Source: Promethearchaeota archaeon Loki_b32
GTDB taxonomy: Archaea > Asgardarchaeota > Lokiarchaeia > Sigyniarchaeales > SOKP01
DNA length: 53,446 nucleotides
Direction of reading: 5' to 3'
NCBI GenBank assembly: GCA_005223125.1
Contig: NJBH01000027.1
Span: 1-53,446 of the forward strand
Shown here: positions 33,862 to 51,448 of the stretch, piece by piece
Numbering within the stretch: position 1 is the first letter of the stretch
How the letters are laid out: the number at the start of each line of letters is the position of its first letter
Program-made: the position numbers and the translations under genes
The notes under the pieces: generated by a model
What the model was told of the DNA's origin: nothing
Databases searched by the model: none
Seen by the model: only the letters and a program-made list of their open reading frames with translations

Positions 33862-36117
33862 ATGTCGTTAAAGGATTTCACTAAAGAAGTCTTTACTCGT
33901 TATGGCTTTACCGAAGATCATATTAATATCTATCTTGTGTTTTTAAGGGTTCCCAGAGCAACCACATCTGAAGTATACATGACTCTAACTGAGAAACATG
34001 AAGATTTGACTTATGAAACTGTATTAGAAATTACTAATTGGCTAGTTGAGAAAGGATTTCTTAAAAGAATTGAAGGAATTATTGAGAGATATATTCCTCT
34101 TCAGCCATTTTTTGAACTATTCACCAATGAATCAGAGAATTTTAGAAATGAAATTGCGAAGATTAAAGATACGATTTTATCTGATCAATCAGATCGTTTT
34201 GAAAAACTCGAAGCGATTCAAGATAAAAGTATTGGTGAAGTAGAAAATGCTGTTGATAAACAAGTCACCGCATTTTTTGAAGATTCTGATTCAAAAAATA
34301 ACACTAAAAAAAATCGCATTGACAGTGCTACTAATCGGTTTACTGAAACTTCCAAAACATTAGAAAGTAATATCCATGGGATAATGGACACATTAAATTC
34401 GAATTTAAAAAATATTTCAGAAACAAATGTTAGTAAAAATGAAGCGGAAGTTACTAAAACAAAAGACGATCTTACATCATTGATTTCGAAATTATTACTT
34501 GATTTTTCAACTAGAGTTGAGACCCTAGAAAAAGAATTGAAGATGGAGCTGGATGAACACGTTGAGAGACATAAAAATACAGCAAATCAACTTAAACCTA
34601 AAATGGAACAAATTTTAGAGAAATATTTAGAACGTATGGATAAAGTTATCGCGGATTTAAAAGTAAAAATCTCGAATTTATTAAAAGAACACTCGAATCA
34701 TGTAAAAAATACTACAGATACTTTACAAACAAACTTAAAAGCGACCGTTGATGAAAGACATAGAATATTAACAGACCAGACTAATGATTTTAAAAGTATG
34801 ACTTTGACCTTAATCGATAATTTACTTGAACATGCAAATAGATTTTCTGATTTTACTGAAGATATAGGAAAAAAAGGATTTTTATGGATGGGTAAAAAGA
34901 AAAAATATAAAGCTAGACATAAAACAACTATTGAAAATATATTGACTTACACTGAACCAATGAAACCAGATTTTATTAAATCATGCGATGATTATATAGC
35001 AGATACACGAGGAACCACCGATCAAATTAAAACTGATACAACAGATATTATGGCAAAAGAAAATGAAGGGCTAGCTGCAGAAACTAATGACCTTGACTAT
35101 AGGGCTCAAGAAACTGTTGATGCACAATTGGAGACCCTAGCTACTGATCTAGTAGGAGAAGTTGATGATACTTTACAAAGTGGTGTAAAAGATTGTTCTG
35201 ATACTAATTTAAAACTTAAAGATTCCTTAGAAAATTCATTGAAAACACATCATAGACAATATGATGATGCAATAAACAATCATAAGGAAAATTCATTAAA
35301 AAATTATACCGATTTTGACATTGAAATTAAGAGAATAAGTGCGGATTGGACCAGAGATATAGATATGAATTTTGCTGATGGTAAAAGAGATTGCTCCGAA
35401 AAAATTGATGGTGAAATTAGATTATGGGATGCTGAAGCTAAAGGTATGAACACTAACTTAAGTGATATGCTTGTGGATCACAAATCCAAATATGAACAAA
35501 ACGCAAAAACACTTCAAAATAGTTTGTCAAATACCACAAGAGATACTATTCAAAATGTTAAGGACGCAATCGCAGATTTCACTCTACAATTCATGAATTC
35601 TATTGATGATTCCACTGAATTAGGCGAAAATAATGAGAGTAAATTAACTGATATTCATAATGCTTCTAGTTCGATTCCAGAAATTGCTAAAGTAACAACT
35701 TGGCCTGTAATCGGAAAAGATGCTATGGTTTCTGCGATAAAAGATGCAATTTATCGTGTAAAATCTTCAATTATTATTGTTACTCCATATGTCGTCCCTG
35801 AAATACTACAAGTCGTCTCTGAATACGCTTTCCAGAAAAAGGCAGTGCGATTCATGCTGACAAGCAGGTGGGAAATGGATAGATATTCAGGAATTATAAC
35901 AAAGATGAAGCAACTTGGAAACATACAGTTCCGCCAATTACAGACAGCCGGCGAGTTCTTCGCAGTTACCCGAGATGCTGAGGAAGTAATTCTTGCTCCT
36001 GCCACAAAAAAAGAAACTGAAATGATCGCGATCGTCTCAAACCAAGAGGGATATGCTAAACTTTATTCTCAATTCATCGGGCCAATTTTTCAAGCAAATA
36101 GCCGGCCGATAAAGTAA
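33862..36117 (+). CDS. TrmB-type HTH, long coiled coil and PLD-like domain protein
   Basis: A 751-residue protein in three parts. Residues about 1-85 are a TrmB-like winged helix (VFTRYGFTEDHINIYLVFL, then TSEVYMTLTEK, VLEITNWLVEKGFLKRI). Residues about 90-600 are continuous charged helix rich in Asp, Thr, Lys and Asn, a very long coiled coil resembling chemoreceptor or apolipoprotein rods. Residues about 615-751 form an alpha/beta domain (SSIIIVTPYVVPEILQVV, VRFMLTSRWEMDR, AEEVILAPA) like the PLD-related sensor domain of TrmB regulators, but without an HKD catalytic motif. A DNA-binding head on a long rod could bridge chromatin to another structure. The last 300 bases look less AT-rich than the middle. 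Function unknown. Confidence 0.72.
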   Translation: MSLKDFTKEVFTRYGFTEDHINIYLVFLRVPRATTSEVYMTLTEKHEDLTYETVLEITNWLVEKGFLKRIEGIIERYIPLQPFFELFTNESENFRNEIAKIKDTILSDQSDRFEKLEAIQDKSIGEVENAVDKQVTAFFEDSDSKNNTKKNRIDSATNRFTETSKTLESNIHGIMDTLNSNLKNISETNVSKNEAEVTKTKDDLTSLISKLLLDFSTRVETLEKELKMELDEHVERHKNTANQLKPKMEQILEKYLERMDKVIADLKVKISNLLKEHSNHVKNTTDTLQTNLKATVDERHRILTDQTNDFKSMTLTLIDNLLEHANRFSDFTEDIGKKGFLWMGKKKKYKARHKTTIENILTYTEPMKPDFIKSCDDYIADTRGTTDQIKTDTTDIMAKENEGLAAETNDLDYRAQETVDAQLETLATDLVGEVDDTLQSGVKDCSDTNLKLKDSLENSLKTHHRQYDDAINNHKENSLKNYTDFDIEIKRISADWTRDIDMNFADGKRDCSEKIDGEIRLWDAEAKGMNTNLSDMLVDHKSKYEQNAKTLQNSLSNTTRDTIQNVKDAIADFTLQFMNSIDDSTELGENNESKLTDIHNASSSIPEIAKVTTWPVIGKDAMVSAIKDAIYRVKSSIIIVTPYVVPEILQVVSEYAFQKKAVRFMLTSRWEMDRYSGIITKMKQLGNIQFRQLQTAGEFFAVTRDAEEVILAPATKKETEMIAIVSNQEGYAKLYSQFIGPIFQANSRPIK

Positions 36118-36194
36118 ATTCTGTTTTTTTCCTCTATTTTTTATTTATTTTGGATTAATAGCTTAACGAAAAATGAAATTATCACAAGTTTAAA

Positions 36195-36284
36195 TTATAA
36201 AAGAAAATCTTTAAGATCTTTACTCATATCTGACTTGATTTTTCTTTCAAGTTCCTCTGATTTTATTCTTGAAGAAATATAGAA
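36195..36284 (-). pseudogene. Decayed C-terminal fragment of a CPYG-type Cys protein
   Basis: Thirty in-frame codons on the minus strand end in a stop and encode a peptide that includes SEELERKIKSDMSKDLKDF. The intact protein at 39830-40540 ends with SEKLEKEIKADISKDLKDF. The similarity also holds at the DNA level over about 85 bases. A stop lies two codons upstream and no start or cysteine region remains, so this is the tail of a lost paralogue, left 3.6 kb from the living copy. Confidence 0.72.
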
Positions 36285-36309
36285 ATTCAATTAAATAGAC
36301 AAAAAAAGG

Positions 36310-37161
36310 TTATAACAAGTCCAGAATATTATTAAATTTAAGATTTGTTTGATCCTTTAGATTATTCTTAAGAAATAATTCAAAATAATCAATATTCTTT
36401 AGTAAAGAAGCCAGTTCTAATAGTGCTTTTTTATAAACATAGATATCAGATGTGCTTTTAATAAGATCCTCAAAAAAATAGTTAATTTTAGACACTATAT
36501 TTATTAATTCTAAATCTTTAAACCTGCCACACTTTTCCATTAAATAATCCCATCGATTAAAGACATGATAATAAACAGAGGGATAAAGAAATTTGTAGTA
36601 AAATAGAAGTATTAAATCATTTAACGATATTGTAGAATTTGGAAACTTGAGAAATTTTATAAGTGTAAAAACTTCTTCTATGTTTTGAAATACTTGATCA
36701 AGATAGAAATTTGGAATATTGGATCCGGTCATTTTTGCCTGCCAATCAGCAAAAAATTCTCTAAAAATGAAAATTATAGTCTTTAGAATAATATTTCTTT
36801 TAGATTTGGTTGTAATTACTCTTTTATTTAATACATTAAAAGATTTTTTAGTGGATTCATTAAGTAAAGAATGTCCATATTCATGATGAGCTAAATATTT
36901 AAATATATCCTCAAGAGTTTCATCAGTGATATTAGGCACATTTAGATACTCTTTATTGATTTTAAGTGGATTATAATATACTTCAATTATATTTTGATTA
37001 TATTGGCATAAAAAACAAAAATCTTCTTTTTCGAATGTTGAATTTGTCAGGAAACTACGACTCCCAATTTTTTTTAATTCAAACTTACGGTTATCTTTTC
37101 TCAGTTTTATTTCTTCAATTTCCTTTGAAAATATATTCAAATATTTGGTTAATTGGCTCAT
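36310..37161 (-). CDS. Gluzincin-like HExxH zinc metalloprotease
   Basis: A 283-residue soluble protein. The zinc site is His93-Glu94-x2-His97 (YLAHHEYGHSLLNE), and about 40 residues later Glu135-x3-Asp139 (FREFFADWQAK) gives the gluzincin-type third ligand. The remaining C-terminal 140 residues are helical and Phe/Tyr/Asn-rich with no recognised domain. A pair of cysteines (FCFLC, about 49-52) lies before the protease core. It is not close to any protease family I can name. It sits in the accessory stretch between the decayed CPYG fragment and the radical SAM/TcmP pair, so a role in defence or peptide processing is possible but inferred. Confidence 0.68.
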   Translation of the reverse strand: MSQLTKYLNIFSKEIEEIKLRKDNRKFELKKIGSRSFLTNSTFEKEDFCFLCQYNQNIIEVYYNPLKINKEYLNVPNITDETLEDIFKYLAHHEYGHSLLNESTKKSFNVLNKRVITTKSKRNIILKTIIFIFREFFADWQAKMTGSNIPNFYLDQVFQNIEEVFTLIKFLKFPNSTISLNDLILLFYYKFLYPSVYYHVFNRWDYLMEKCGRFKDLELINIVSKINYFFEDLIKSTSDIYVYKKALLELASLLKNIDYFELFLKNNLKDQTNLKFNNILDLL

Positions 37162-37418
37162 ATAGTAGATAAAGCTAACCTATTATTAAGTTTTAATTAG
37201 TTTTGAAATATCTATAAACAAATTATAATCATTATTGAAGTAGATAATTATTTCATAACTGAGATGTTCTTAAATGATATCATTGATTCTTTTTATGTCT
37301 TATGAATATTACTTAGTTTGAATAATTACCAACTATATTTTTAATTAAGTGATAAAATTGATTTTAAGAAATTTTTTATAGATTTTTTATTTATAAAAGT
37401 AGAATAGAGGATATATTA

Positions 37419-38195
37419 ATGTTAAGTAGATCAAGAAAAATAACTTTAGGAACCAAAGAATGGGCAGATAGTAATGTTAATTGCTATTTCGGATGCTCCA
37501 ATAATTGTCGTTATTGTTATGCTAAGAAGATGGCTATCCGATTTAAAAGAAAAACAGAAAAAACATGGAAGATTATGGAACCTAATCTTAAAGCAATTAA
37601 AAAAGGATACTTAAAGCGAAAAGGAAGAATAATGTTTCCGACATCTCATGATATAACAATGGAAAGCCTAAGCAGTTGTCTTATAGTTTTAAAGAAAATC
37701 ATCGATGCTGGAAATGAGATTTTAATTACTACTAAACCTAGATTGAGTTGTATCAAATTAATATGCAATGATTTTTATAAAAAAAAGAATTCAATTCAAT
37801 TTCGGTTTACTATTACTTCGAAAAATAATGAATTATTAAAATTTTGGGAACCGTATGCGCCATTATTTAAAGAAAGAATCGAAGCATTGAAATTTGCATA
37901 TCATAAAGGTTATAAAACAAGTGTTTCAATTGAACCATTTCTAGATGAAGACCCCTATACTTTAGTTGATATATTATATCCTTATATAACTGAATCCATA
38001 TGGATTGGAAAAATGAATTATGTTTTCTCCAAAAATAAAACGCCAAAATTAATCAATTTTTATAATTACATAGATAAAATTAACTCTAAAGAAAATTTGT
38101 TAAGAATCTTTGATATGGCTAAAAATTATGATAATTCTATTGTTAGAATCAAAGATAGTATTTACAATTTTTTAAATAAAGTTAATTTAAAATAA
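37419..38195 (+). CDS. Gp37/Gp68-like three-Cys-motif radical SAM protein
   Basis: A 258-residue radical-SAM-like protein. The cluster motif is Cys26-x3-Cys30-x2-Cys33 within NCYFGCSNNCRYCYAKKMAIRF, and the following CYA..MA.R is the signature of the phage Gp37/Gp68 (DUF5131) family rather than generic radical SAM enzymes. Later strands include FPTSHDITM, ILITTKPRLSCI and TSVSIEPFLD, as in spore-photoproduct-lyase-type barrels. In many genomes this family is paired with TcmP, the three-Cys-motif partner, and the next gene here matches that partner. The reaction is unknown. A TATA-like TTTATAAAAG about 30 bases before the ATG suggests an almost leaderless transcript. Confidence 0.75.
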   Translation: MLSRSRKITLGTKEWADSNVNCYFGCSNNCRYCYAKKMAIRFKRKTEKTWKIMEPNLKAIKKGYLKRKGRIMFPTSHDITMESLSSCLIVLKKIIDAGNEILITTKPRLSCIKLICNDFYKKKNSIQFRFTITSKNNELLKFWEPYAPLFKERIEALKFAYHKGYKTSVSIEPFLDEDPYTLVDILYPYITESIWIGKMNYVFSKNKTPKLINFYNYIDKINSKENLLRIFDMAKNYDNSIVRIKDSIYNFLNKVNLK

Positions 38196-38305
38196 TTAAA
38201 TTTAAATTTAAAATTCTGTATCAAAAATCATTAAACTTATACTCATTTGAAAAATATAATAGTTATTTTGATCGTAATTTTTAGATAAAACGAATCAGTA
38301 ATTTG

Positions 38306-38324
38306 TGTCGGTTTTTGTCGGTTT
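38306..38324. repeat. Tandem TGTCGGTTT direct repeat upstream of the TcmP-like gene
   Basis: Two exact copies of TGTCGGTTT begin ten bases apart, one helical turn, about 40 bases upstream of the TATA box of the next gene. GC-bearing words like this stand out in the AT-rich spacer. The placement fits a dimeric activator or repressor site. Confidence 0.45.
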
Positions 38325-38360
38325 GAATAAAGAACAACTAATAATTACCAAATAATTTAA

Positions 38361-38368
38361 TTTATAAA
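38361..38368 (+). promoter_or_regulatory. TATA box of the TcmP-like gene
   Basis: TTTATAAA preceded by AATAATTTAA (weak BRE). The expected start site, 22-27 bases downstream, falls at or just before the ATG at 38394, so the message should be leaderless or nearly so. It gives this gene its own promoter, separate from the radical SAM gene upstream. Confidence 0.55.
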
Positions 38369-38393
38369 GGCGTTCCTTATTATTATTAATGAA

Positions 38394-39398
38394 ATGGCTA
38401 ATACTAAGAAGATAACCAATTTTGAATTTCATCTACAAAATATAAAGAAGTTAGATGATGAATGGAGATTTTTAAAAAAAATTCCAACGTTTCCTTTTGG
38501 AGATCCTAGATATTATTACTCGAGAGATGACAACAGTGGATGGTGGATGGCAATCAAACAAACTGCATTCAGAGGATATATTAGTGCATACCTCTCAATT
38601 TTAGGAAAAGAAAAAGATCGGAAGCTCTATTTTATTGATCCATTAAGTAGTTATGGTATGGTAAGGGTTACGAAAAATTATGGGAAAGATAAGTTTACAT
38701 TCCCAGGTACTTCAATTAATGCAGCATTAATATCCAATCAGAAAAAAAAGGGATTTGATGGCTTCTATATTAATGATTTAGACCTATTTACAAGAAATAT
38801 ATTAAGCGAGAGAATATTATCTATTAAAACTCATTATAACAATAAGGCTGAAATTAATATTGACATAAGTAACAATAAGATTGATTCTAATAACTGGCTT
38901 ATTAATATTATGAGATGTATTAACGAAGAAAATAGTTTCTATCATTGTTTAATTATTATTGATAACCAAGCTATGAATATATATTATGATACTATTCAAA
39001 AAATTAGAGAAATCAGTGAATATTGTGATGTTATCATTACTTTCCAAGATGCTAATATTGCTCGTGCAATACCATCAGGATCACCAAAAATTGAAAGGTT
39101 TTTTGGATGTGAAATTCCACCTAACACTAAAAATCTCAGAAATGTGTTGTGTGACAAATATTGTGACCAATTAAGTAAAGTTAATTTGCCTAAAATTGAA
39201 AGAATGAAAGTCGCATCTGAAACGGGATATTTTTATACTTTACTTTTTTGCTGTCGACAGAAAGCAAGTGGGGAATGGTTTAAAATAATTAGGTATTACA
39301 ATGATGAGAGATTTAAGAACTTCACAGATAGAGAGCAAAAACGAATGTGGGATATTAGGAAAGGCAAGCAGCTAAGTCTTACTCATGATTGGAATTAA
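38394..39398 (+). CDS. Three-Cys-motif partner (TcmP-like) protein
   Basis: A 334-residue protein resembling TcmP, the conserved partner of Gp37/Gp68-like radical SAM proteins. Matching features run in the expected order: a lysine and aromatic helix (WMAIKQTAFRGYISAYLSIL), the strand LYFIDPLSSYG (where the family has an Asp-containing 'yiD.faG.G' segment), FPGTSINAALISN, FDGFYINDLD, and IIIDNQAMNIYYD (a methyltransferase-like strand 4). The fold order suggests a Rossmann-like enzyme. The C-terminus CRQKASGEWFKIIRYYND fits the family end. The function of the pair is not established. The immediate upstream neighbour is the matching radical SAM gene; this gene has its own promoter and direct repeats. 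Confidence 0.7.
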   Translation: MANTKKITNFEFHLQNIKKLDDEWRFLKKIPTFPFGDPRYYYSRDDNSGWWMAIKQTAFRGYISAYLSILGKEKDRKLYFIDPLSSYGMVRVTKNYGKDKFTFPGTSINAALISNQKKKGFDGFYINDLDLFTRNILSERILSIKTHYNNKAEINIDISNNKIDSNNWLINIMRCINEENSFYHCLIIIDNQAMNIYYDTIQKIREISEYCDVIITFQDANIARAIPSGSPKIERFFGCEIPPNTKNLRNVLCDKYCDQLSKVNLPKIERMKVASETGYFYTLLFCCRQKASGEWFKIIRYYNDERFKNFTDREQKRMWDIRKGKQLSLTHDWN

Positions 39399-39521
39399 AC
39401 TTTAATACCATTTCTTCTTATTATTTCTTTTTTACTAAGCCATAAGATTTTTTGGCAATGTCATTTGAATATCTTTTTTAAAGCCTTAAGATTAATTTAA
39501 AAATCCAATTTGAAGTAATAC

Positions 39522-39785
39522 TTATGTATAAGCATTCCAAGTATCAACAGCTTTAAAATATTTAGAAGCAAGATCTCTTGAACCAATATATTGAACCCAT
39601 TTTATGAAAGCCTCATCTTTCGATCCAATATTAGGAATATAAGCATCATATGTTATTTCAATAAATTTATCTATATTTGTTTTAAACTTATCGAAGTTTG
39701 GGATAATTTGAGGCTTTGATATTTTTATGAATATATGGTAAATTTCCATATATTCTTTTTCGGTAAATTCTACTTTTTTCTTCAT
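39522..39785 (-). CDS. Unknown 87-residue protein
   Basis: Not recognised. A small, soluble, mostly helical protein (EFTEKEYMEIYHIFIKI, then FDKFKTNIDKFIEITYDAY), with many aromatics and no cysteines. ATG start with GGGAAGA upstream. It lies 45 bases after the CPYG-type Cys protein on the same strand and is probably cotranscribed with it, so a shared role in the accessory island is plausible. Confidence 0.5.
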   Translation of the reverse strand: MKKKVEFTEKEYMEIYHIFIKISKPQIIPNFDKFKTNIDKFIEITYDAYIPNIGSKDEAFIKWVQYIGSRDLASKYFKAVDTWNAYT

Positions 39786-39829
39786 GTCTTTTCTTCCCTA
39801 AATTGTATCCTCAAGATACTATGTTAAAA

Positions 39830-40540
39830 TTATATAAGAAAATCTTTAAGATCCTTGCTTATGTCTGCCTTTATTTCTTTTTCAAGCTTCTCTGATGCAT
39901 ATTCTGCTTTATAGAAAACAGGACAATCAAATCCAAAAAGTTTACAAGTAAACTCATTATATACATTTCTCTTTTTAGAAACTAAACTGATCACACCATA
40001 AGGGCAATATTTAAGAAGTATACAAGGTTTTTCAAATTCTGGTCTAAAATATTTCTTTAAATGTTTAAATCTGATTCGTTTTGCTTCATTTCTTAATTCT
40101 TCATTAAATTTTGGTCTATTTAATGATTTTTCTATAACTTTTTCAGAAATATAAAAAACAGGACAGTCATGACCAAAAACTTGGCAGGTATATCTCGATA
40201 TCTCTCTGCGGATTCTAAAAGCTTCAACAAGCCCACCATAAGGGCACCACTTAAGTATATAACAAGGTTTTTCTGCGTTCTCATCAACCATGATACTCTC
40301 ATTGAACCATCTTTTAGGATCAGTGGTTTCCTGTATATCATTATAGCATTCTTCGCAAAACCATCCCTCATATTGAGCAATATAGACCATATTTTTCATA
40401 GTATCATCCCCCTTACACCTACAACATAAAATTGAGTGATGAAATGCGGTTAAAAGTTCGTTATATTCTCTATTTAGTTGCCCTCTCCTTTTCTCATCCA
40501 ACTTAGTATACTCATTGATAAGTCGGTTTTTCCAAGCCAA
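39830..40540 (-). CDS. Duplicated CPYG/FGxDCPVFY cysteine-cluster protein
   Basis: A 236-residue protein of unknown function with a striking internal duplication. Residues 91-130 and 171-210, exactly 80 apart, share KPC-x5-CPYG and FTC/YTC-x4-FG-x-DCPVFY. Each repeat has four cysteines spaced C-x5-C-x19-C-x6-C: Cys93/99/119/126 and Cys173/179/199/206. Each could hold an iron-sulfur cluster or zinc. An N-terminal pair of knuckles (SILCCRCKG and WFCEECYND) adds another likely zinc site. The C-terminal helix matches the decayed fragment at 36195-36284, so this island once held two copies. Similar CPYG/FGHDCPVFY proteins occur in archaeal accessory regions as uncharacterised genes. Confidence 0.72.
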   Translation of the reverse strand: MAWKNRLINEYTKLDEKRRGQLNREYNELLTAFHHSILCCRCKGDDTMKNMVYIAQYEGWFCEECYNDIQETTDPKRWFNESIMVDENAEKPCYILKWCPYGGLVEAFRIRREISRYTCQVFGHDCPVFYISEKVIEKSLNRPKFNEELRNEAKRIRFKHLKKYFRPEFEKPCILLKYCPYGVISLVSKKRNVYNEFTCKLFGFDCPVFYKAEYASEKLEKEIKADISKDLKDFLI

Positions 40541-41060: not shown

Positions 41061-41109
41061 TTTTTAAAAAAGTAATAAAAGATAAAATTAAGAAAAAAAT
41101 GAAATTTAA

Positions 41110-41907
41110 TTATTTAATTTTTTTAGCTTCTTCAATCCAATCTTCAATTTCTTCTAATCGAGGAGGCTTTCTAAACACATCTGGTTTTTCTTTATCTAAT
41201 GCTGTTATCCGATCCAGAGTATTCTTAGGGTTTCGTTGGGCTAATTCTTTAACGCTATCAATTCCAATCTGATTAAGAACATCTGAATATTCAGGGCCTA
41301 CACCACCTATTCTCATTAAATCTGCATGTTCTGCCCATTTATCTATTAGTTTCTCCGAAATTTTTGTAGATGCTGCTAGATTTTTAATTTTAACTGAATC
41401 AAACGATATCAAATTTTCAACATTGGATATTCCCGCTTTTTCTAATGTTTTGGAATATTTGCTACCAATTCCCTCAATTTCAATAATTGGAGTCGTTTTT
41501 GGACTTGTTTTGGCTTTTTTATCTTCATACATTCCTTTTGCTTCACTTATCCAGCCCCCTATTTCTTCAACTTTAGGTATTTTTCTGATTACGTCAGGTT
41601 GTTTTTTATCCAAAATAACTATTTTATCCAATGTTTTTTGAGGATTCCTGTAAGAGAGTTCTTTAATAGAATCAATTCCGACTATATTTAAAACTTCAGA
41701 ATATTCAGGACCAATACCCTTGAGTTCCATTAGCTCTGCTTGATCTTGCCATTTTTCAAGTAATTTTACTGAGATCTTTGTTTTTTCTGCTAATTCTTTT
41801 AGTTCCCGCCATGTTAAGGGTATTAGATTTTCTACTTCAGCAATACCTTCTTTCTCTAATATTTTAGCATATTTCTCGCCAATACCCTCAATTTCAATAA
41901 TTTTCAT
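41110..41907 (-). CDS. Tandem helix-hairpin-helix (DUF4332-like) protein
   Basis: A 265-residue protein made of two near-copies, residues about 2-124 and 140-265, joined by a Lys/Thr/Pro linker. Each copy has two helix-hairpin-helix motifs: IEGIGEKYAKILEKEGI and LKGIGPEYSEVLNIVGI in the first, IEGIGSKYSKTLEKAGI and IGGVGPEYSDVLNQIGI in the second. Each copy then ends with a helix containing W (GGWISEAK or EDWIEEAK). This is the DUF4332 pattern, likely to bind DNA or act as a protein-interaction module without enzymatic activity. ATG start at 41907. It stands alone; its mate may have been lost at the chimeric junction downstream. Confidence 0.75.
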   Translation of the reverse strand: MKIIEIEGIGEKYAKILEKEGIAEVENLIPLTWRELKELAEKTKISVKLLEKWQDQAELMELKGIGPEYSEVLNIVGIDSIKELSYRNPQKTLDKIVILDKKQPDVIRKIPKVEEIGGWISEAKGMYEDKKAKTSPKTTPIIEIEGIGSKYSKTLEKAGISNVENLISFDSVKIKNLAASTKISEKLIDKWAEHADLMRIGGVGPEYSDVLNQIGIDSVKELAQRNPKNTLDRITALDKEKPDVFRKPPRLEEIEDWIEEAKKIK

Positions 41908-42080
41908 AATATTCGCCTTATTATATTTTAAAACTAATTTTATTGTTGGTAAGATAAATATGGGGTGTTCTTTTTTAATATTTTACTCAATCAAAAATAA
42001 GTTTAAAAAATGATTGGAATCAGAATTTTAAACAATGTGAAACTATTTTCATTTAGTTAAATCTGGAATCAAATAATTGG

Positions 42081-42461
42081 ATGAAGAAAAATACAATGAT
42101 GGATACTTCTAAAAAAAGAGTTGAATTAATGGCTCCGCTGAAAAACTATAAATCCCTAAACGCTGTGTTAGGTAAAGCTGATGCTGTGTATTTTGGTGTT
42201 GAATCGTTTAACATGCGAATGTATAGTGACAATTTTAAACTAGAAGAACTAAATGATATTGTAAAAATTTGCCATAATCATAATATTAACGCTTACCTAA
42301 CAACAAATGTAGTAATTTATGAAAATGAATTTTCTCTTTTAGATCAAATATTAGATAAAGCAGTAGAGGCCGAAATTGATGCTGTAATCATTCATGACAT
42401 TGGTGCTATTCAATTAGCAAAGGAAAAAGGATTACATTTCCATATTTCTGACCTCAATTAA
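42081..42461 (+). CDS. U32 peptidase family protein, cut off by the chimeric junction
   Basis: The first about 122 codons are the N-terminus of a U32-family protein (collagenase-like, also used in tRNA hydroxylation and ubiquinone synthesis): VELMAPLKNYKSLNAVLGKADAVYFGVESFNMRM, DIVKICHNHNINAYLTTNVV, and IDAVIIHDIGAIQLAKEKG. Family members run to 300-400 or more residues and continue with HISTQ where this frame reads HISDLN and stops. The reading frame therefore leaves archaeal sequence near 42449 and ends by chance in foreign DNA. Treat it as a partial gene. The true start may be either of the first two ATG codons. Confidence 0.8.
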   Translation: MKKNTMMDTSKKRVELMAPLKNYKSLNAVLGKADAVYFGVESFNMRMYSDNFKLEELNDIVKICHNHNINAYLTTNVVIYENEFSLLDQILDKAVEAEIDAVIIHDIGAIQLAKEKGLHFHISDLN

Positions 42462-42470
42462 CTGCAAAGG
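42440..42470. other. Chimeric junction: Asgard-like to Acinetobacter-like DNA
   Basis: The U32 gene loses its family match after the codons for HIS near 42449. From about 42465 onward the base composition, codon use and gene content are those of Acinetobacter, and the first gene met is the 3' end of pilQ. No integrase, tRNA, insertion sequence or direct repeat marks the boundary. This fits an assembly or amplification join, not a natural insertion. Confidence 0.8.
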
Positions 42471-42648
42471 TTTTTAATGGACCGTTTTAAAACAGATTTG
42501 ATTTCATCCCCAATAACTTCAAGTGATAACTAACAAAGAATAAAAACCTTTGATGGTTTGTTATCTTGTTAAGAGAAAGCTATCTTTGCCTCGAACATGC
42601 AATATGTCAAATCAGAGGTTGAGTTCATTTGCAATTATTGAAAATATA
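42462..42648. other. Spacer downstream of pilQ with a separated inverted repeat
   Basis: No gene is seen. Arms CAAAGGTTTTT (42465-42475) and AAAAACCTTTG (42542-42552) are perfectly inverted over 11 bases with 66 bases between, and could be a long hairpin or an amplification scar. In Acinetobacter aroK normally follows pilQ; no aroK start is visible here, which agrees with the bacterial sequence being cut at the junction. Confidence 0.45.
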
Positions 42649-44826
42649 TTAATGATTTCTTGTCAAAGTGTCATTAACAATTCTCGGTGTCACAAAAATT
42701 AGCAGTTCACGCTTATTATCCGTTTTAAGATCACGACGGAATAATCGACCAATGTAAGGAATATCGCCTAAGAAAGGTACTTTTGTTTGAGAGCTAATAT
42801 TTTCCTGCTCAAAAATCCCACCTAAAACAACGGTTTCGCCATTATCCACTAATACATTGGTATCAATAGAGTTTTTGCTAATCGTTAATTGACCAGTAGG
42901 TGTTGGCGTACTAGGTGCATCCTTAGTGATATTCAACTTCATCATTACTTTACCATCAGGTGTAATGCTAGGAGTTACATCCAAACTTAAGGTTGCGTCA
43001 ATAAATTCAGTTTTAGGAACTGCATTTGCTCCGCCGCCAGACGAAGAGGTATATGGGATTTTTGTACCTGACTCAATTTTTGCCGCTTGTTTATCAGCAG
43101 TCATCACTTTCGGTGTAGAAATTACCTCACCATAACCATCAGCCTGTACTGCTGAAAGCTCTAAATCCAACATAAAGTCAGATAAACTGATTAGACCAAA
43201 GGCAATTCTACTGGCACCTGGTGTAACAGCCCCCAAATCAACATTCAGATTATCTGGCCGTTCAATTTCATACGTCCAACCACCAGTATCTGAATTCTTT
43301 GTTGGTTCTCGCAAATTCCATAAAGTTGTATCACTACCACCAACCAATAAATCATTATTACTCGTAATGCCTTGTGATAAAATACCCCACTTCACACCCA
43401 TCTCTTTTGTGAAATCGGTACTTGCTCGTACAATGCGCGCTTCAATCATCACTTGCTTAACCGAAACATCCAGTAAATCAATCATTTTACGTATTTTATC
43501 AATATTAACTGCCGTATCATTGACAATTAAAGTATTCGTTCGTGTATCAGCTACAACACTCCCCCTTGAACTCAACAAACTTTCTAAAGCAAGAGAATCA
43601 GAATTCGCTGTACGATTTGCAACAGCGCCCTTCCCATCTCTTGAGTCTTCTATTAACTTTAAAATATCTGCAGCTTTTGCATAACTTAATTTAATATATT
43701 CAGACTGAATAGGCGCTAATTTAATGCTTTGAGCAATCGCTTTCGCCTCATCTTCCTCAGATTTAATCAACTCAGGAATAGGCGCAATCCAAATCACATT
43801 ACCATTGCGACGCTTATCTAAATTTTTAGTTTTCAGTACAATATCTAGCGCCTGATCCCATGGAACATCCTTTAAACGCAAAGTAATGTTTCCTTGCACC
43901 GTATCCGCAGCAACCATATTGATTCCAGTAAAGTCTGCCAACAGCTGTAATACTCGACGGACCTCAATATCTTGGAAGTCCAAAGAAATTTTATTACCCG
44001 TATAGGTCTGAGCTTTGGCTTTTTGCGGTGTGTTATCTTGAGGGCGCTTAAGACTAATCGTCAGCTTATTTTCTGCTTGATATGCCATATACTCATAGCT
44101 ACCTGCAGACTGGATATTAATAATTCCATTACCTTTATCATTATATGCGTCAATACTGGCAACTGGTGTCGCAAAATCATTGGTATTTAAGCGGCGCGCT
44201 AAATGAGTCGGGATTTTACTTCCCATTGTCCGAACAACGATCTTACTTCCTTGTTGTTGAACATCAACTGGCGTATTACTTCCCAGCAGATCAATAACAA
44301 CTAAACCTTCACCATCTTTACCACGCTGAAAACCAATATTTGATACACCTTGCTGTACCTGATTCACTGAAGATTTCATTACAGCACTAGTCTGAGGTTG
44401 TACAGAATTAATTTTCAGTACAAAAGTATTACCTTCAACACGAGTCGTAAATGCACCAGCATCTTTTAGATTTACAATTACACGAGAACGCTGATCATCA
44501 GAAGCTACATCAATCGAATTTGCTTCATTCGTAGACACTGGAATAGACGTTCTTTTCAATGTTTGTTGAGCTTTATCGAAATCTAGAATTAATCGACCTG
44601 GCTGCTCAAGTTGATATGCTTGTGGCTGAGGTGGTAAACCATTAAACATGATTCGAATCTCAGTACCTTGCTCAGCCAAACTCATCGGTACAATGTTCGT
44701 CATCGCTACCTGAGCTGAAGCAGCCTGCATTACCGCTATAGTAATAGCAGCCATAGAAAATTGTCGGAATGCACGATTCATGGTCTTCGCTTCCCCAAAT
44801 AAAGAATCTTTAAACTGTTTTTTCAT
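42649..44826 (-). CDS. pilQ: Type IV pilus outer-membrane secretin PilQ
   Basis: A 725-residue secretin forming the outer-membrane pore for type IV pili and DNA uptake. After a signal sequence (MNRAFRQFSMAAITIAVMQA, from Met16; the first ATG would add 15 residues) come two AMIN domains (about 45-260), the short N-terminal secretin domain (KISLDFQDIEVRRVLQLLAD, about 285-350), the N1 domain (YIKLSYAKAADILKLI) and the C-terminal secretin domain ending DIPYIGRLFRRDLKTDNKRELLIFVTPRIV. The length and sequence are those of Acinetobacter PilQ. Last gene of pilMNOPQ; base composition is unlike the archaeal part. Confidence 0.97.
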   Translation of the reverse strand: MKKQFKDSLFGEAKTMNRAFRQFSMAAITIAVMQAASAQVAMTNIVPMSLAEQGTEIRIMFNGLPPQPQAYQLEQPGRLILDFDKAQQTLKRTSIPVSTNEANSIDVASDDQRSRVIVNLKDAGAFTTRVEGNTFVLKINSVQPQTSAVMKSSVNQVQQGVSNIGFQRGKDGEGLVVIDLLGSNTPVDVQQQGSKIVVRTMGSKIPTHLARRLNTNDFATPVASIDAYNDKGNGIINIQSAGSYEYMAYQAENKLTISLKRPQDNTPQKAKAQTYTGNKISLDFQDIEVRRVLQLLADFTGINMVAADTVQGNITLRLKDVPWDQALDIVLKTKNLDKRRNGNVIWIAPIPELIKSEEDEAKAIAQSIKLAPIQSEYIKLSYAKAADILKLIEDSRDGKGAVANRTANSDSLALESLLSSRGSVVADTRTNTLIVNDTAVNIDKIRKMIDLLDVSVKQVMIEARIVRASTDFTKEMGVKWGILSQGITSNNDLLVGGSDTTLWNLREPTKNSDTGGWTYEIERPDNLNVDLGAVTPGASRIAFGLISLSDFMLDLELSAVQADGYGEVISTPKVMTADKQAAKIESGTKIPYTSSSGGGANAVPKTEFIDATLSLDVTPSITPDGKVMMKLNITKDAPSTPTPTGQLTISKNSIDTNVLVDNGETVVLGGIFEQENISSQTKVPFLGDIPYIGRLFRRDLKTDNKRELLIFVTPRIVNDTLTRNH

Positions 44827-44842
44827 TTTTATTCCCTTAATC

Positions 44843-45370
44843 TTACGGTGCTAGCCCAATTAAAACGAGAGTTCTAGGTCTTTCAACATACCCTTCTCGC
44901 CCATCAGGTACAATTTCCACCAAATCAATCTGTGTCGGGCTGATTTTAACAATTCGTCCTTGATTTACACCCAAGTAACTTCCAACTTGCACACGCTCTA
45001 CCTGCCCATCTGGTGTTTGAATCAAAGCAATCGTCTCATTACTTTTCCCACGCATACTACCTTTCATATTCAGAGACTCTAGTGCATAGCTCTCTAAAGG
45101 TTGTGGTTGACGATTAAAGTTTGGATAAACACGTTTACCCGCCATGATTCTTAATTCCGCAGCCAAAGAACTTGGCATAAATGGACTTTTTAATTGGTGT
45201 GCTGAATAATTAAATAAAGGTACTGGTGTAAAAATAGGTGCTGGTTCAATCGGTAGTGGAGCTTCATTACGAATAGCAGCCATCTGTTGATTTACAGCGT
45301 CAATACGAGAATCACAACCAGACAAACCAAGCAGCGATAATACGCCGAGTAATAATGTTGTTTTATTCAT
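44843..45370 (-). CDS. pilP: Type IV pilus inner-membrane lipoprotein PilP
   Basis: A 175-residue lipoprotein of the pilus alignment complex. The N-terminus has a lipobox (LLGLSGCDSR). A proline-rich stretch that contacts PilN/PilO follows (PLPIEPAPIFTPVPLFNY), then the beta-barrel domain (SLNMKGSMRGKSNETIALIQTPDGQVERV, then YLGVNQGRIVKI) that contacts the PilQ N-domains. ATG start two bases after the pilO stop, so the genes are coupled. 16 bases precede pilQ. Confidence 0.95.
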   Translation of the reverse strand: MNKTTLLLGVLSLLGLSGCDSRIDAVNQQMAAIRNEAPLPIEPAPIFTPVPLFNYSAHQLKSPFMPSSLAAELRIMAGKRVYPNFNRQPQPLESYALESLNMKGSMRGKSNETIALIQTPDGQVERVQVGSYLGVNQGRIVKISPTQIDLVEIVPDGREGYVERPRTLVLIGLAP

Positions 45371-45372
45371 TA

Positions 45373-46107
45373 TTACTTCCCTCCTTGAGCATTAGCAGCT
45401 GGTTGAGTTGCTGGAGAAACCGTGTCCGTACCAGCTTGATCATCTGCCCCAATATAACGATATGTTTTTGCTTTAACTGAGTAATTAATCACAGGAATAT
45501 CTGATTTCTTTTGTGTATCAGGTTTAGCTTCTACAACAAAATCATGTAGCGTTACGATTCGAGGTAACGCAGCAATCCCCGTAACGAACGCGCCAAATGC
45601 ATGATAATCACCCGTTGCCTCAATGCTTATTGGTTGCTCAATAAAGAATTCTTGCTTAACTTCACTCTCTAAACGGATATTTTTAAATTTCAGACCAGAA
45701 TTCACGCCTGTTAAGTTAATATCTTCAACCAAACTTGGAATTTCTGTTTCTTTTGGAAGCTGTTCAAGCTGTTGATTAAAATTCGCTTCCATTTCTTGTA
45801 ATTGTGCTTGGTATTGCTGCAAGTTTCTTAACTTCGAGTCCTTCTCTCTAAACTCGTTTAATAAGCTTTGCTCTTTAGCTTGCGCATTTGCAATCGATTC
45901 AAGCTGAGATTTAATGACGACGAAATAACCAAGCGCCACCACCGCCAAGAAAACAAAAATCCAGCATGTAATTTTAACTGACAGAGGCCAACTGCCGTAG
46001 TTGTTCATATCCAACGTGTTAAATTGTTGGAAGAACTGCTCTACTGTCATTTTCTTTTTCTTGACTACAACATCTTGATTGAGGTCATTTAGTTCTTCTT
46101 GACTCAT
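45373..46107 (-). CDS. pilO: Type IV pilus assembly protein PilO
   Basis: A 244-residue bitopic inner-membrane protein: a cytoplasmic N-terminus, one helix (about 48-68, ITCWIFVFLAVVALGYFVVI), a periplasmic coiled coil (KEQSLLNEFREKDSKLRNLQ) and a ferredoxin-like domain (GDYHAFGAFVTGIAALPRIVTLHDF) that dimerises with PilN. The low-complexity C-terminus (TQPAANAQGGK) is typical of Acinetobacter. The start overlaps the pilN stop by four bases. Confidence 0.95.
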   Translation of the reverse strand: MSQEELNDLNQDVVVKKKKMTVEQFFQQFNTLDMNNYGSWPLSVKITCWIFVFLAVVALGYFVVIKSQLESIANAQAKEQSLLNEFREKDSKLRNLQQYQAQLQEMEANFNQQLEQLPKETEIPSLVEDINLTGVNSGLKFKNIRLESEVKQEFFIEQPISIEATGDYHAFGAFVTGIAALPRIVTLHDFVVEAKPDTQKKSDIPVINYSVKAKTYRYIGADDQAGTDTVSPATQPAANAQGGK

Positions 46108-46748
46108 TGTGCACCTCCAGCCGTTGCAGAAGCAGCTGTTTCCGCTGATGGGTCAACTTCAGTCACCGCCCCAATCTCCCCTAAATCAACTGTTACAACA
46201 AAGCTTCCATAGTTTTCCTCGACTCGAGGAACTAAAGAACTAGCAGCTTTATCTTTTTTCTCTTCGGCCGCTAAGAACGAATTCATAAATGCATTTCGAT
46301 ACCAAGGGGATGCTTCCAAATTACGCAGCAATTCAGCAACTGTATTTGGACTTTCCGCTTTTCCTTCAATCGTGAATTTATCACCCGTTCTTGTGAACTT
46401 GGTTAAATACATCGTAGGTGGCGTAACCCGAACCAGTTCATCTACCAATCGCACAGTTACAGGACGCTGACCTTGCAATCCTTGAATCAGCTTCATACGT
46501 TCAATAATTGCATTACGTCGTTCTTGCAAACCTTCTAATGATTTTAACTGAGTATCTAGATTTTGATTGGTACTTACAATTAATTGATTCGCTTGCTCTT
46601 GATCATCCAGTTTTTGATCAAAGTAAACCCAACCTGAAAATATTGATGCCACACCTAAAGCAGCAACACCAACACACAAAGCGACAAACTGTTTCTTTCT
46701 TTGTTCTCTTAGCTCATCACGCCAAGGGAGTAAGTTAATCTTTGCCAT
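46104..46748 (-). CDS. pilN: Type IV pilus assembly protein PilN
   Basis: A 214-residue bitopic membrane protein. The N-terminal INLLPWRDELR motif binds PilM. One membrane helix follows (about 22-44), then a periplasmic coiled coil and a ferredoxin-like domain (TPPTMYLTKFTRTGDKFTIEGKAES). It overlaps pilO by four bases and its ATG overlaps the last base of the pilM stop, a fully coupled operon. Confidence 0.95.
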   Translation of the reverse strand: MAKINLLPWRDELREQRKKQFVALCVGVAALGVASIFSGWVYFDQKLDDQEQANQLIVSTNQNLDTQLKSLEGLQERRNAIIERMKLIQGLQGQRPVTVRLVDELVRVTPPTMYLTKFTRTGDKFTIEGKAESPNTVAELLRNLEASPWYRNAFMNSFLAAEEKKDKAASSLVPRVEENYGSFVVTVDLGEIGAVTEVDPSAETAASATAGGAQ

Positions 46749-47806
46749 TAATCAAAACTCCTCAATGCTAGACCACATGCCACCATCAAAGAGGAAGCAT
46801 CATTTTCTATTTTTTTAATGTCAATTTGGGGAGAAAAGCCCATTTGTAGGAATGGGTTAGCAATCGTAACGCGATAACCTAGTTTTTGTTGCAATAGCTT
46901 CGCTAAGCCAGGAATATTGGCATTACCGCCAGCCAATAAAATATGATCAATTTCATTAAATTGCGATGATGAGAAGAAAAATTGCAGTGAGCGTGCAGCT
47001 TGCTGCACAACCGCATCAAGGAAAGGTTCCAAAACTTCAGTGTCATAATCATCTGGGAGCGATCTTTCTTTTTTTGCCCGACCTGCTTCTTCAAATGATA
47101 AACCGTAGCGGTTTTGCACATCTTGGGTAAGCTGGCGACCACCAAATACTTGCTCACGCGTATAAATGATTTTACCTTTTTGCATCACAGATAAAGTTGT
47201 CATGGTATGACCAATATCTAGAATGCCGACAGTATTCGCGCCCATTGGAAGCGTATCAGAAAACACACTAAAAGCTCGTTCCATTGCATAACTTTCAACT
47301 TCAGCAATTTTTGCTGTTAAGTTCGCAAGTTCAAGAACTTCGACACGCGTGTCAACATTTTCTGTTCGGGTAGCAACTAATAGGACGTTAACGCGATTGG
47401 GATTTGGCAATTTATCAGGCAGAACCTCAAAATCAAGGCTCACCTCATCTAATGGAAACGGAATGTACTGTTCAGCATCCATACGAATTTGCACTTCACG
47501 CTCTTCATCTGACATATCAGCATCCATCTCAATGATCTTATTAATCACCATTGATGTTGGAACTGCGATTGCCACATTGGTAGTGTGAGGGTTCGCTAAA
47601 TTGACAACACGCTCAAGGGCATCACCAACTGCTTCAGGATTAAGAATGCTTTTTTCGACGACACTGTTTTCTGGCAGCGGCATCAACGCATAACTTTCAA
47701 CCCAATATCTACCGTTCTTTACAGAGAGCTCCAATAACTTAACAGTTGTCGAACTAATATCGACCCCTACTAACCCCTTATTTGGTTTACGATATAACCT
47801 GAGCAC
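46748..47806 (-). CDS. pilM: Type IV pilus actin-like ATPase PilM
   Basis: A 352-residue FtsA/actin-fold cytoplasmic protein. Phosphate-binding loops are at GVDISSTTVKLLEL and VGILDIGHTMTTLSVM, and the adenosine motif at ILLAGGNANIPGLAKLL. It binds ATP and the PilN N-terminus, organising the alignment complex. The start is GTG, placed by AGGAAAG four bases upstream; it is the first gene of the operon. Confidence 0.96.
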   Translation of the reverse strand: MLRLYRKPNKGLVGVDISSTTVKLLELSVKNGRYWVESYALMPLPENSVVEKSILNPEAVGDALERVVNLANPHTTNVAIAVPTSMVINKIIEMDADMSDEEREVQIRMDAEQYIPFPLDEVSLDFEVLPDKLPNPNRVNVLLVATRTENVDTRVEVLELANLTAKIAEVESYAMERAFSVFSDTLPMGANTVGILDIGHTMTTLSVMQKGKIIYTREQVFGGRQLTQDVQNRYGLSFEEAGRAKKERSLPDDYDTEVLEPFLDAVVQQAARSLQFFFSSSQFNEIDHILLAGGNANIPGLAKLLQQKLGYRVTIANPFLQMGFSPQIDIKKIENDASSLMVACGLALRSFD

Positions 47807-47968
47807 AGTACTTTCCTATTTATTTTTTTATCCCCAAAAATACAACATACTAATTTGTTTTGGTCTTTAATTTATACGGATACAATAACTCATCTAACAA
47901 TCCGCATGTCTAAAGGATATACTGACCACAATTAGTTTGCCATTCGCTCTTATTAAAACTTACTTATT
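47807..47968. promoter_or_regulatory. Divergent promoter region pilM / ponA
   Basis: A 162-base AT-rich spacer between divergently transcribed pilM and ponA, so it must carry both promoters. I could not single out convincing -35/-10 pairs by eye. The pilM ribosome site AGGAAAG lies at its left edge. Confidence 0.4.
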
Positions 47969-50557
47969 ATGAAAAAGCTATCCAGTTCTGGCATTGTTCG
48001 CCCATTTTTTTTGATGCTTATTATTATCTTAGTCTCACTTCCAATGGGATTTTATGGCATGTATCTCTATCTTGCACCATCTTTGCCAGATATGAGTTCT
48101 CTAAAAAAAGCGCCATTACTAAAACCATTGCAAGTCTATACAGCTGATAATAAGTTAATCGCGGAATATGGTGGCAAACTATCAATACCAGTAAAGTATG
48201 AGCAAATTCCCCCAACATTTATCCATGCATTTCTAGCAGCGGAAGACTCTTCCTTTTTTGAGCATAATGGCATTAGCTTCAAAGGTCTTGGTCGCGCAGT
48301 CACTGAATCAATTACTGGATCCGATGTCCAAACTGGTGGCTCAACGATCACCATGCAAGTTGCGAAGAACTATTATTTAAGCCCAGACCGTACATTAAGA
48401 CGCAAACTAACAGAGGTTTTCCTTGCACGAAAAATTGAACAAAACCTAACAAAACAAGAAATTCTAACAGCTTATGTCAATAAAATTTTCTTAGGAAAAA
48501 ATGCTTACGGTATCGCAGCAGCAGCTCGAATCTACTACAACAAAAATATAAATGAACTAACAACAGCACAAATGGCAATGATCGCTGGATTGCCTAAAGC
48601 ACCATCAAAGTATAATCCTGTTGTAAATCCTGAACGAGCACTTGAACGTCGTAATTGGATTTTAGGTCGTATGTTGCAGCTTGGTTATATTAATCAAACC
48701 CAATATCAAAAAGCAGTTGCTGAACCAATTAGTTTAAACATGGTGGATCGTTCAGTCAGTAACGTATTTCCCTATGTAGGTGAAATGGTTCGTGCTGAGC
48801 TTGTTGAACATTTTGGCGCTCAAGCAATCGACTCTGGCTATAAGGTTTATACTACGATTGATAGCAAACGTCAGCGCTATGCAGAACAATCAATTCAAGA
48901 TGGCCTTGAAGCTTATGATCGTCGTCATGGCTGGCGTGGTCCTGAAGCTCATGATAAACCACTTAATCAGTTCATGGCATATGCCAACACCTACCCCGCA
49001 CAAGTTGTAAAAGTAAAGAGCAACTCTTTTGATGCTTTGATGCAAGATGGTTCAACAGTCACCGTGAATTGGTCAGGCATGTCATGGGTGCGTCCTTATC
49101 GTAATGCCAATAGCGTTGGCGGCGCTCCATCCAATGCTTCTCAAATTGTTAAGGTTAAAGATATTATTCGCTTACGACCAAATGAAGATAAAACCGTTTG
49201 GTCTTTAGTTCAAGTTCCAAAAGTCCAAGGACAATTGATTGCATTAAATCCAAATGATGGTTCAATTGAAGCAATCGTAGGTGGATATAATTTCTATCAA
49301 ACAAAATTTAATCGTGCTTTACAAGGCTGGAGACAGCCTGGTTCAACCATTAAACCATTTGTCTATGCATTAGCATTAGAGCGCGGCATGACACCATTTA
49401 GCATGGTGAATGACAGTCCCATTACGATTGGCAAATGGTCTCCTCGAAACTCTGATGGTCGCTATCTCGGTATGATTCCGCTACGTCGTGCATTGTATTT
49501 ATCTCGAAATACAGTCTCTGTGCGCTTATTACAGAATGTAGGAATCGAAAGAGCTCGCCAATTATTTATGGATTTTGGCTTACAGGATGATCAAATTCCA
49601 CGCAACTACACGATTGCGCTCGGCACACCTCAAGTTCTTCCAGTGCAAATGGCAACAGGTTATGCAACCTTTGCAAATGGCGGTTATCGTATTCAGCCTC
49701 ATTTCATCAAAAGAATTGAGGACAATAATGGCAATATCATTTATGAAGCTAAGCCTGAATATGCATGTATTCCATGCATCAGCGACTCAAATGCTTATAA
49801 CCAAGCACAAGACACCAACCAAGATGATGAAACACAAGAGATCACCAATGAAAGCTTAGAGAACGCTCTAGCATCATCAGAAACTCAAGCGACAGATGCA
49901 AATCCTGATCGATTACTCAAGACCAATAGCAATTACAAACAAGCTCAACGAATTTTAAAATCCAGTTCAGCTTATGATATGGCAAATATCCTACATGACG
50001 TAATTCAGCGTGGTACAGGTCGTGCTGCACTCAAAATTGGACGAGATGACTTAGGTGGTAAAACAGGAACAACCAATGATGCGAAAGATGCTTGGTTCGC
50101 AGGCTTTAATGGCAAGCTCGTCGCGATTGCTTGGGTTGGATTTGATCAACCTCGCACATTAGGTCGTCGTGAATATGGTGGTGTTGCTGCACTACCTATT
50201 TGGTCGAACTTTATGGCGAAGTCACTTGCAGGCACACCGTCTACATGGGTTCGTTTTGATAAAGATGCAAGTGCACCAATCTCTCGTGATGAACTACAAG
50301 TTCAACAAAGCGAAGATCAAAAAGTTTATCGTGCATCTCCACCATTAGCGCGTCCTCTCTATCGCCCAGCACCAGTTGTTCCAACACGTTCAATAGATAA
50401 CGATTTCTCAGACTTACCTGGCACAGCACCTTCAGCTGATGAACAAATTATTGTTCCCTCAAAAAAACAACCACCTGCTTTAGGTACGGAGACTCAAAGT
50501 CCGTCACCGAAGAAAGAAAGAGATAATATAGAAAACCTCATTAACCAAATCCAATAA
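47969..50557 (+). CDS. ponA: Penicillin-binding protein 1A
   Basis: Class A bifunctional peptidoglycan synthase, 862 residues. Features are an N-terminal membrane anchor (about 12-35) and a GT51 glycosyltransferase domain with AAEDSSFFEHNGIS and GGSTITMQVAKNYYL (catalytic Glu in EDS..F). An OB-like insert follows. The transpeptidase domain has the active-site Ser in GSTIKPF, the LSRNTVS motif, and KTGTTNDAK. The C-terminal tail is Pro/Ser-rich and disordered. Typical Acinetobacter length and neighbourhood (divergent from pilM). Confidence 0.97.
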   Translation: MKKLSSSGIVRPFFLMLIIILVSLPMGFYGMYLYLAPSLPDMSSLKKAPLLKPLQVYTADNKLIAEYGGKLSIPVKYEQIPPTFIHAFLAAEDSSFFEHNGISFKGLGRAVTESITGSDVQTGGSTITMQVAKNYYLSPDRTLRRKLTEVFLARKIEQNLTKQEILTAYVNKIFLGKNAYGIAAAARIYYNKNINELTTAQMAMIAGLPKAPSKYNPVVNPERALERRNWILGRMLQLGYINQTQYQKAVAEPISLNMVDRSVSNVFPYVGEMVRAELVEHFGAQAIDSGYKVYTTIDSKRQRYAEQSIQDGLEAYDRRHGWRGPEAHDKPLNQFMAYANTYPAQVVKVKSNSFDALMQDGSTVTVNWSGMSWVRPYRNANSVGGAPSNASQIVKVKDIIRLRPNEDKTVWSLVQVPKVQGQLIALNPNDGSIEAIVGGYNFYQTKFNRALQGWRQPGSTIKPFVYALALERGMTPFSMVNDSPITIGKWSPRNSDGRYLGMIPLRRALYLSRNTVSVRLLQNVGIERARQLFMDFGLQDDQIPRNYTIALGTPQVLPVQMATGYATFANGGYRIQPHFIKRIEDNNGNIIYEAKPEYACIPCISDSNAYNQAQDTNQDDETQEITNESLENALASSETQATDANPDRLLKTNSNYKQAQRILKSSSAYDMANILHDVIQRGTGRAALKIGRDDLGGKTGTTNDAKDAWFAGFNGKLVAIAWVGFDQPRTLGRREYGGVAALPIWSNFMAKSLAGTPSTWVRFDKDASAPISRDELQVQQSEDQKVYRASPPLARPLYRPAPVVPTRSIDNDFSDLPGTAPSADEQIIVPSKKQPPALGTETQSPSPKKERDNIENLINQIQ

Positions 50558-50560
50558 GCT

Positions 50561-50588
50561 AAAAAGCCATCAAATTGATGGCTTTTTT
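50561..50588. terminator. Bidirectional intrinsic terminator ponA / rlmA
   Basis: AAAAAGCCATCAA paired with TTGATGGCTTTTTT: a stem with A and T runs on both sides, placed between and overlapping the convergent 3' ends of ponA and the rRNA methyltransferase gene, whose stop lies inside the hairpin. Confidence 0.9.
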
Positions 50589-51388: not shown

Positions 51389-51412
51389 CTATTTTCTCCA
51401 AACATAAAAAAA

Positions 51413-51430
51413 AGCTGGTCATCACCAGCT
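51413..51430 (-). terminator. Intrinsic terminator of mraY
   Basis: On the minus strand AGCTGGT-GATG-ACCAGCT is followed by eight T bases, just after the mraY stop and before the rlmA start: a seven-base stem with a four-base loop. Confidence 0.9.
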
Positions 51431-51448
51431 CTTTTCTCGAATCTTGGC

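Follow-up and report, generated by a model that had tools for sequence, protein, structure and literature searches.

The 53,446-nucleotide contig NJBH01000027.1 of Promethearchaeota archaeon Loki_b32 (the window) carries two adjacent genes, separated by 198 bp, that encode a radical SAM protein and a TcmP-like protein; both open reading frames were confirmed. They lie in the following setting, in which "unstranded" marks stretches to which no strand applies:

33862-36117, plus strand: conserved coiled-coil ("coil") gene, the left flank, present in 17 of the 19 genomes of the genus
36118-39515, unstranded: segment missing from the nearest congener (G011), where the coil gene and p87 lie 168 bp apart
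36188-36261, unstranded: left copy of a 74-nt direct repeat (84% identity), a remnant of the 3' end of the CPYG gene
36310-37161, minus strand: HExxH protein of 283 aa that matches no family, lies in the insertion and is not a recurrent partner
37384-39434, plus strand: DNA common to the window and the paralogous copy G000:C64 (79% identity), the pair alone plus ~35 bp on each side
37419-38195, plus strand: radical SAM protein of the GTKEWA clade, 258 aa
38394-39398, plus strand: TcmP-like protein, 334 aa, predicted class I methyltransferase fold
39522-39785, minus strand: p87, a resident gene of the site, which also adjoins the coil gene in G011 and G004
39823-39896, unstranded: right copy of the 74-nt direct repeat, at the 3' end of the CPYG gene
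39830-40540, minus strand: CPYG cysteine-cluster protein, a resident-type gene whose full-length relative (62%) adjoins the coil gene in G017
42029-42449, plus strand: 5' part of a U32 peptidase gene, the right flank, which directly follows the coil gene in G010 and G015 and is cut here by a chimeric junction

The radical SAM protein carries the CX3CX2C cluster motif (residues 26-33) and matches PF04055 (E 3.7e-5), and its confident AF2 model (pLDDT 92.9, pTM 0.90) has radical SAM folds as best matches, which places it in the superfamily, defined by that motif in a (partial) TIM barrel. The original prediction had named it a Gp37/Gp68 (DUF5131) enzyme. Its relationship to phage-borne radical SAM enzymes stands (phrog_13321, E 3.4e-16, 60 bits), but the DUF5131 profile itself (PF07505) aligned only to residues 14-50 and fell short of the gathering threshold (E 5.8e-5; 23.1 bits vs 28.9); from these profile scores, we place the protein in a clade sister to DUF5131. 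The best NCBIfam match was TIGR04470, rSAM_mob_pairB (E 4.3e-10; 39 bits vs a cut-off of 410), a family that with TIGR04471 (mobile pair B/A) pairs two radical SAM proteins, whereas the partner in the window is TcmP. The spore photoproduct lyase profile TIGR04070 scored only 17.2 bits against a cut-off of 400, below both TIGR04470 and phrog_13321, and the best solved structure was not a spore photoproduct lyase (SPL); as anticipated, the protein is not an ordinary SPL. Searching the PDB by sequence returned no match. Foldseek comparison of the model with solved structures gave TM-scores up to 0.54 (SuiB, MoaA, DesII, SPL and viperin), with the peptide-modifying SuiB and SkfB among the top matches; all solved radical SAM enzymes are thus remote from the model.

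The signature GTKEWA..N...GC.NNC.YCYAK...RF is common to the window protein and nine close Lokiarchaeia relatives (54-78% identity), and a clade-wide scan of our collection identified 43 genome loci in Lokiarchaeia, Desulfobacterota, Bacteroidota, Spirochaetota and others. Across 32 aligned members, CX3CX2C is fully invariant, and HD (77-78), SxEP (170-173) and WxGK (195-198) vary little or not at all.

The prediction that the second gene encodes a TcmP was borne out: it matched PADLOC PDC-M41A (E 1.2e-12) and, over residues 53-294, NCBIfam TIGR04474 (TcmP, three-Cys-motif partner), the latter below the cut-off (E 2.4e-10; 40.8 bits vs 53). A close relative, L006/L025 (34% identical), reaches 76 bits in a genome search, above that cut-off. 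Because every match of the pair to a profile with a curated cut-off falls below it, we regard both proteins as divergent relatives and not canonical members of their families. A single-protein scan of the genome contigs with TcmP found no relatives, and the protein had no sequence match in the PDB; an alignment of all TcmPs was too diverse for scanning viral contigs.

To what fold does TcmP belong? An AF2 model built from 14 sequences (pLDDT 85, pTM 0.87) found E. coli RlmJ (1.8e-6) and A. aeolicus Trm1 (2.6e-6) as its best PDB matches by Foldseek, both at probability 1.00, with moderate TM-scores to RlmJ (0.48 by query, 0.56-0.58 by target). A structure-free, independent profile alignment by hhalign agrees with this assignment: the TcmP profile matched the host genome's own Trm1 (85%, E 6e-6), with motifs I, II and IV (IDPFG) aligned, and E. 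coli RlmJ (27%, 7e-4), as compared to 0.1-0.3% for four controls (an FtsJ-like methyltransferase, glutathione reductase, RsmJ and a transporter). We thus predict, with good confidence, that TcmP adopts a class I fold of the METHYLTRANSFERASE type, nearest to the RNA-base methyltransferases RlmJ (23S rRNA m6A2030) and Trm1 (tRNA G26). In the TcmP alignment an N-terminal W...K precedes ID..AG.G and GSPL.A; beyond the following strand come an acidic residue and then FIDP.G with the invariant D190. E. coli RlmJ (K..YLDTHAGAGRY..GSPLIA..LILIDPPY) has its motifs in this order too; features in common include a lysine in the N-terminal helix, D-x-x-(A/S)-x-x-G, GSPLIA (RlmJ) and D-P-x-G (Trm1).

The window protein follows the motif order of TIGR04474, with K55, motif I FIDPLSSYG at ~80-88, motif II INDLD at 126-130 and D190 within IIDNQAM. 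In its clade, however, motif I reads DPLSSYG (SSYG) and motif IV DNQ(A/G)M: the catalytic DPPY, DPFG or similar is not kept, and in the window copy DNQAM replaces DPxG. L049 even lacks the motif I aspartate. Because of these changes, the window's copy may not methylate; its clade keeps D190 and the predicted fold, with classical catalysis in doubt.

Across Asgard archaea, a radical SAM gene adjoins TcmP in 19 of 25 TcmP loci (those without such a neighbour include L029, L036 and L042), and in one Asgard genome a CX3CX3C radical SAM domain and TcmP are fused in a single 585-aa ORF (L014:1639-3393). The neighbours fall into at least three subgroups, namely GTKEWA (CX3CX2C), the GCPFNCAYCYLQG type (CX3CX2C) and a CX3CX3C type. 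The window and C64 copies are 78% (radical SAM) and 79% (TcmP) identical in protein sequence, with dN/dS of 0.083 for the radical SAM gene, approximate because the synonymous distance is near saturation, and 0.145 for TcmP. Both genes are under purifying selection; together with the Asgard-wide association, these values indicate that their adjacency in the window is not due to chance.

Viewed from the radical SAM side, 16 loci of the clade have an adjoining TcmP, as counted with a TcmP profile built from the related pair loci themselves: three in this genome, eight in other Lokiarchaeia and five in Spirochaetota and Bacteroidota. A phylum-wide search found TcmP beside 13 of 29 matches. Gene order among the pairs varies (radical SAM first, TcmP first or convergent), and on an 86-row radical SAM tree the paired state requires seven changes, at least five of them forced by well-supported branches, which argues that the partnership has been gained or lost repeatedly.

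The accessory, mobile setting that had been proposed for the pair was corroborated by comparison with 18 congeners. Only one of these, G007, holds the radical SAM gene (two copies), so that within the 19 genomes of the genus it is confined to G007 and to this genome, with its three pairs. Where G011 has its short gap between the coil gene and p87, the window holds 3.4 kb encoding the HExxH protein, the radical SAM protein and TcmP; in G010 and G015 the coil gene leads directly to the U32 gene across a gap of 158 bp (an empty site), and other congeners carry varied genes between the two. The C64 copy (L037:6684-10884) is a cleaner case of insertion: in seven congeners the alignment runs as far as L037:6761 and resumes at 10793, which leaves in the C64 copy 4.03 kb that encodes a leucine-rich-repeat protein, the radical SAM protein, TcmP and a 68-aa ORF. 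The N-terminal domain of this leucine-rich-repeat protein (L037:6966-8153) occurs in many copies across the genus, with at least nine matches in this genome. The pair is thus a mobile, accessory module with a patchy spread.

The C64 insertion is bracketed by a 92-bp direct repeat (87%) of which relatives hold a single copy, a candidate target duplication for which shared derived bases offer one weak site only. In the window, the 74-nt repeat is a candidate target duplication, though p87 lies inside the repeat pair and G011 has p87 without the radical SAM and TcmP genes. Direct repeats of 60 bp or more, a limit set after seeing the data, flank 5 of 16 paired loci and none of 55 lone loci (p 0.0003); counting repeats of any length, the figures are 5 of 16 and 4 of 55 (p 0.02). 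One of the five repeat-bracketed loci, L063, lies where the DNA is repetitive in general. Neither the window insert nor the C64 insert contained a recognisable transposase or integrase.

We also considered the neighbouring genes as part of the system, since the metalloprotease and the CPYG protein had been put forward as recurrent companions. This did not hold: the HExxH, CPYG and p87 genes are absent from every related pair locus compared, the DNA shared with C64 is limited to the pair and its immediate margins, and the G017 relative of CPYG stands beside the coil gene, ruling out HExxH and CPYG as companions. Instead, CPYG and p87 belong to the site and not to the system, as their relatives beside the coil gene in G017 (CPYG) and in G011 and G004 (p87) indicate. 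The HExxH protein contains HEYGH and EFFADW motifs and matched no Pfam or NCBIfam family; it is possibly a new metallopeptidase-like family. The gene debris noted earlier is indeed present, in the form of the left repeat copy.

The Asgard assignment of the DNA holds for part of the contig. From position 1 to ~42450, the nearest named relatives support an Asgard (Lokiarchaeia) host, but 42649-53446 is bacterial, with a gammaproteobacterial-type pilus operon (PilQ TIGR02515, 1.5e-161) and a G+C content of 0.40 vs 0.30. The contig is chimeric over 42449-53446, the cut archaeal U32 peptidase gene being followed by a pilQPONM operon and a penicillin-binding-protein gene; this right end may be Acinetobacter-like. 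Near it, a DUF4332 gene block (41064-42005) differs in both place and orientation from its counterparts in congeners, which come after the U32 gene and share the strand of the coil gene; this inversion and relocation could be either a real rearrangement or an assembly error near the chimeric end. The chimera leaves the pair untouched; C64 and other genomes support the pair independently.

Relatives of the radical SAM gene are also found in viruses. Among the 80 best viral contigs, 34 carry a relative at ~36% identity or more, and in none of the 30 viral loci where the gene was resolved did TcmP lie beside it. DNA methyltransferase genes near the viral gene were not significantly enriched (8/107 vs 2/89, p 0.12), and enrichment of ParB next to it was likewise suggestive only (p 0.06). 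Several lone Asgard members of the clade (L178, L182-L186 and L055) lie amid short ORFs and ASCH-like, DNA methyltransferase, CopG-like or ThyX genes, settings suggesting Asgard viruses or plasmids. A further group of lone genes in Desulfobulbaceae and kin (L059, L065, L072, L074, L076, L078 and L079) shares a conserved neighbourhood, comprising a PaaK-like ligase, a 233-aa protein, the radical SAM protein, a 205-aa protein and often SHMT; this branch may have a metabolic role.

Is the pair a defence or modification system, as originally suggested? Its type is indeed catalogued as a putative defence candidate, PADLOC PDC-M41 (TcmP plus a DUF5131-type radical SAM protein), and both components, adjacent in the window, were matched (PDC-M41A as above; PDC-M41B, E 1.2e-5). 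The window pair differs from PDC-M41 in that these matches are weak, its radical SAM protein is of the GTKEWA clade, its methyltransferase motifs are altered, and it is archaeal and present in several copies. The PDC systems originate in a guilt-by-embedding screen and are mostly without validation (PMC12988326); our literature search found no test of protection against viruses by PDC-M41. Expression data from S. meliloti (PMC12445080) list a TcmP gene next to hna, a defence gene. Near the paired loci PADLOC also flags mads, AriA, HEC-01A and RM methyltransferases, a tally that shared ATPase domains inflate. While the pair type is therefore already known as a defence candidate, what is new is the predicted TcmP fold, the mobility in three copies, the lone viral relatives and the pairing in Asgard archaea; an antiviral role is plausible.

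Our preferred reading, held tentatively and at a little under an even chance, is that the pair is a mobile nucleic-acid-modification module, an RlmJ/Trm1-type TcmP with a radical SAM enzyme, that acts in conflict with viruses or mobile elements. In such a module, TcmP would bind nucleic acid, and probably S-adenosylmethionine too, and position a base; the radical SAM enzyme would then perform a radical step, acting either on the positioned base or on a methyl group that this base had received. The outcome would be to mark host nucleic acid or to inactivate foreign nucleic acid, and so to serve the conflict. RNA is favoured over DNA as the substrate for one reason only, that rRNA and tRNA are the targets of the nearest folds. 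A more elaborate version, which we consider decidedly improbable, is that a virus-derived radical SAM enzyme was recruited more than once to a mobile RlmJ/Trm1-like module, with an undescribed two-step RNA or DNA base modification as an immune mark or weapon and an unusual mode of insertion that leaves 70-90-bp direct repeats.

Other explanations would account for parts of these data. The pair could be an ordinary accessory metabolism or repair pair without a conflict role, as the ordinary genes among the flanks would allow, although defence genes are seen near paired loci; we think this unlikely, given that the pair is present in some genomes of the genus and absent from others, comes in several copies and inserts with direct repeats, that its radical SAM gene has lone viral relatives and that PADLOC lists the pair type. 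It is distinctly unlikely, in our judgement, that the radical SAM enzyme modifies a peptide or TcmP itself, the latter being a substrate or scaffold that uses an old methyltransferase fold for binding only. The matches to SuiB and SkfB and the altered motifs I and IV would fit such a role, as would the fast divergence of TcmP (17-48% identity vs 54-68% for its radical SAM partner at the same Lokiarchaeal loci). Peptide-modifying radical SAM enzymes typically carry SPASM or RRE domains, however, for which the 258-aa model would have no room; the structural matches to SuiB and SkfB are weak, and TcmP cannot be the sole substrate of the clade, since its viral members lack TcmP.

A toxin-antitoxin-like addiction pair, in which TcmP would methylate rRNA or tRNA and stop growth while the radical SAM enzyme counteracts it, would explain the strict two-gene association, the mobility, the several copies per genome and the resemblance of TcmP to rRNA and tRNA methyltransferases. 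We nevertheless find it highly doubtful: gene order varies, the gap between the genes in the window is unlike most tightly coupled toxin-antitoxin operons, and TcmP occurs without a radical SAM neighbour at L029, L036 and L042. Finally, viperins are frequent in Asgard archaea and are among the radical SAM folds matched (TM 0.43-0.52), raising the idea that an antiviral small molecule is the product of the radical SAM enzyme, with TcmP only in support; as SPL, MoaA and DesII lie at least as close as viperin and the sequence families do not point to it, this is very improbable indeed.

Returning to the mobile nucleic-acid-modification module, the predicted RNA-methyltransferase-type fold turns a TcmP family of "function unknown" into a specific test, the search for a modified base. 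Empty sites in congeners show the pair to be mobile, and the relatives of its radical SAM gene that stand alone in viruses suggest exchange between viruses and archaeal cells.
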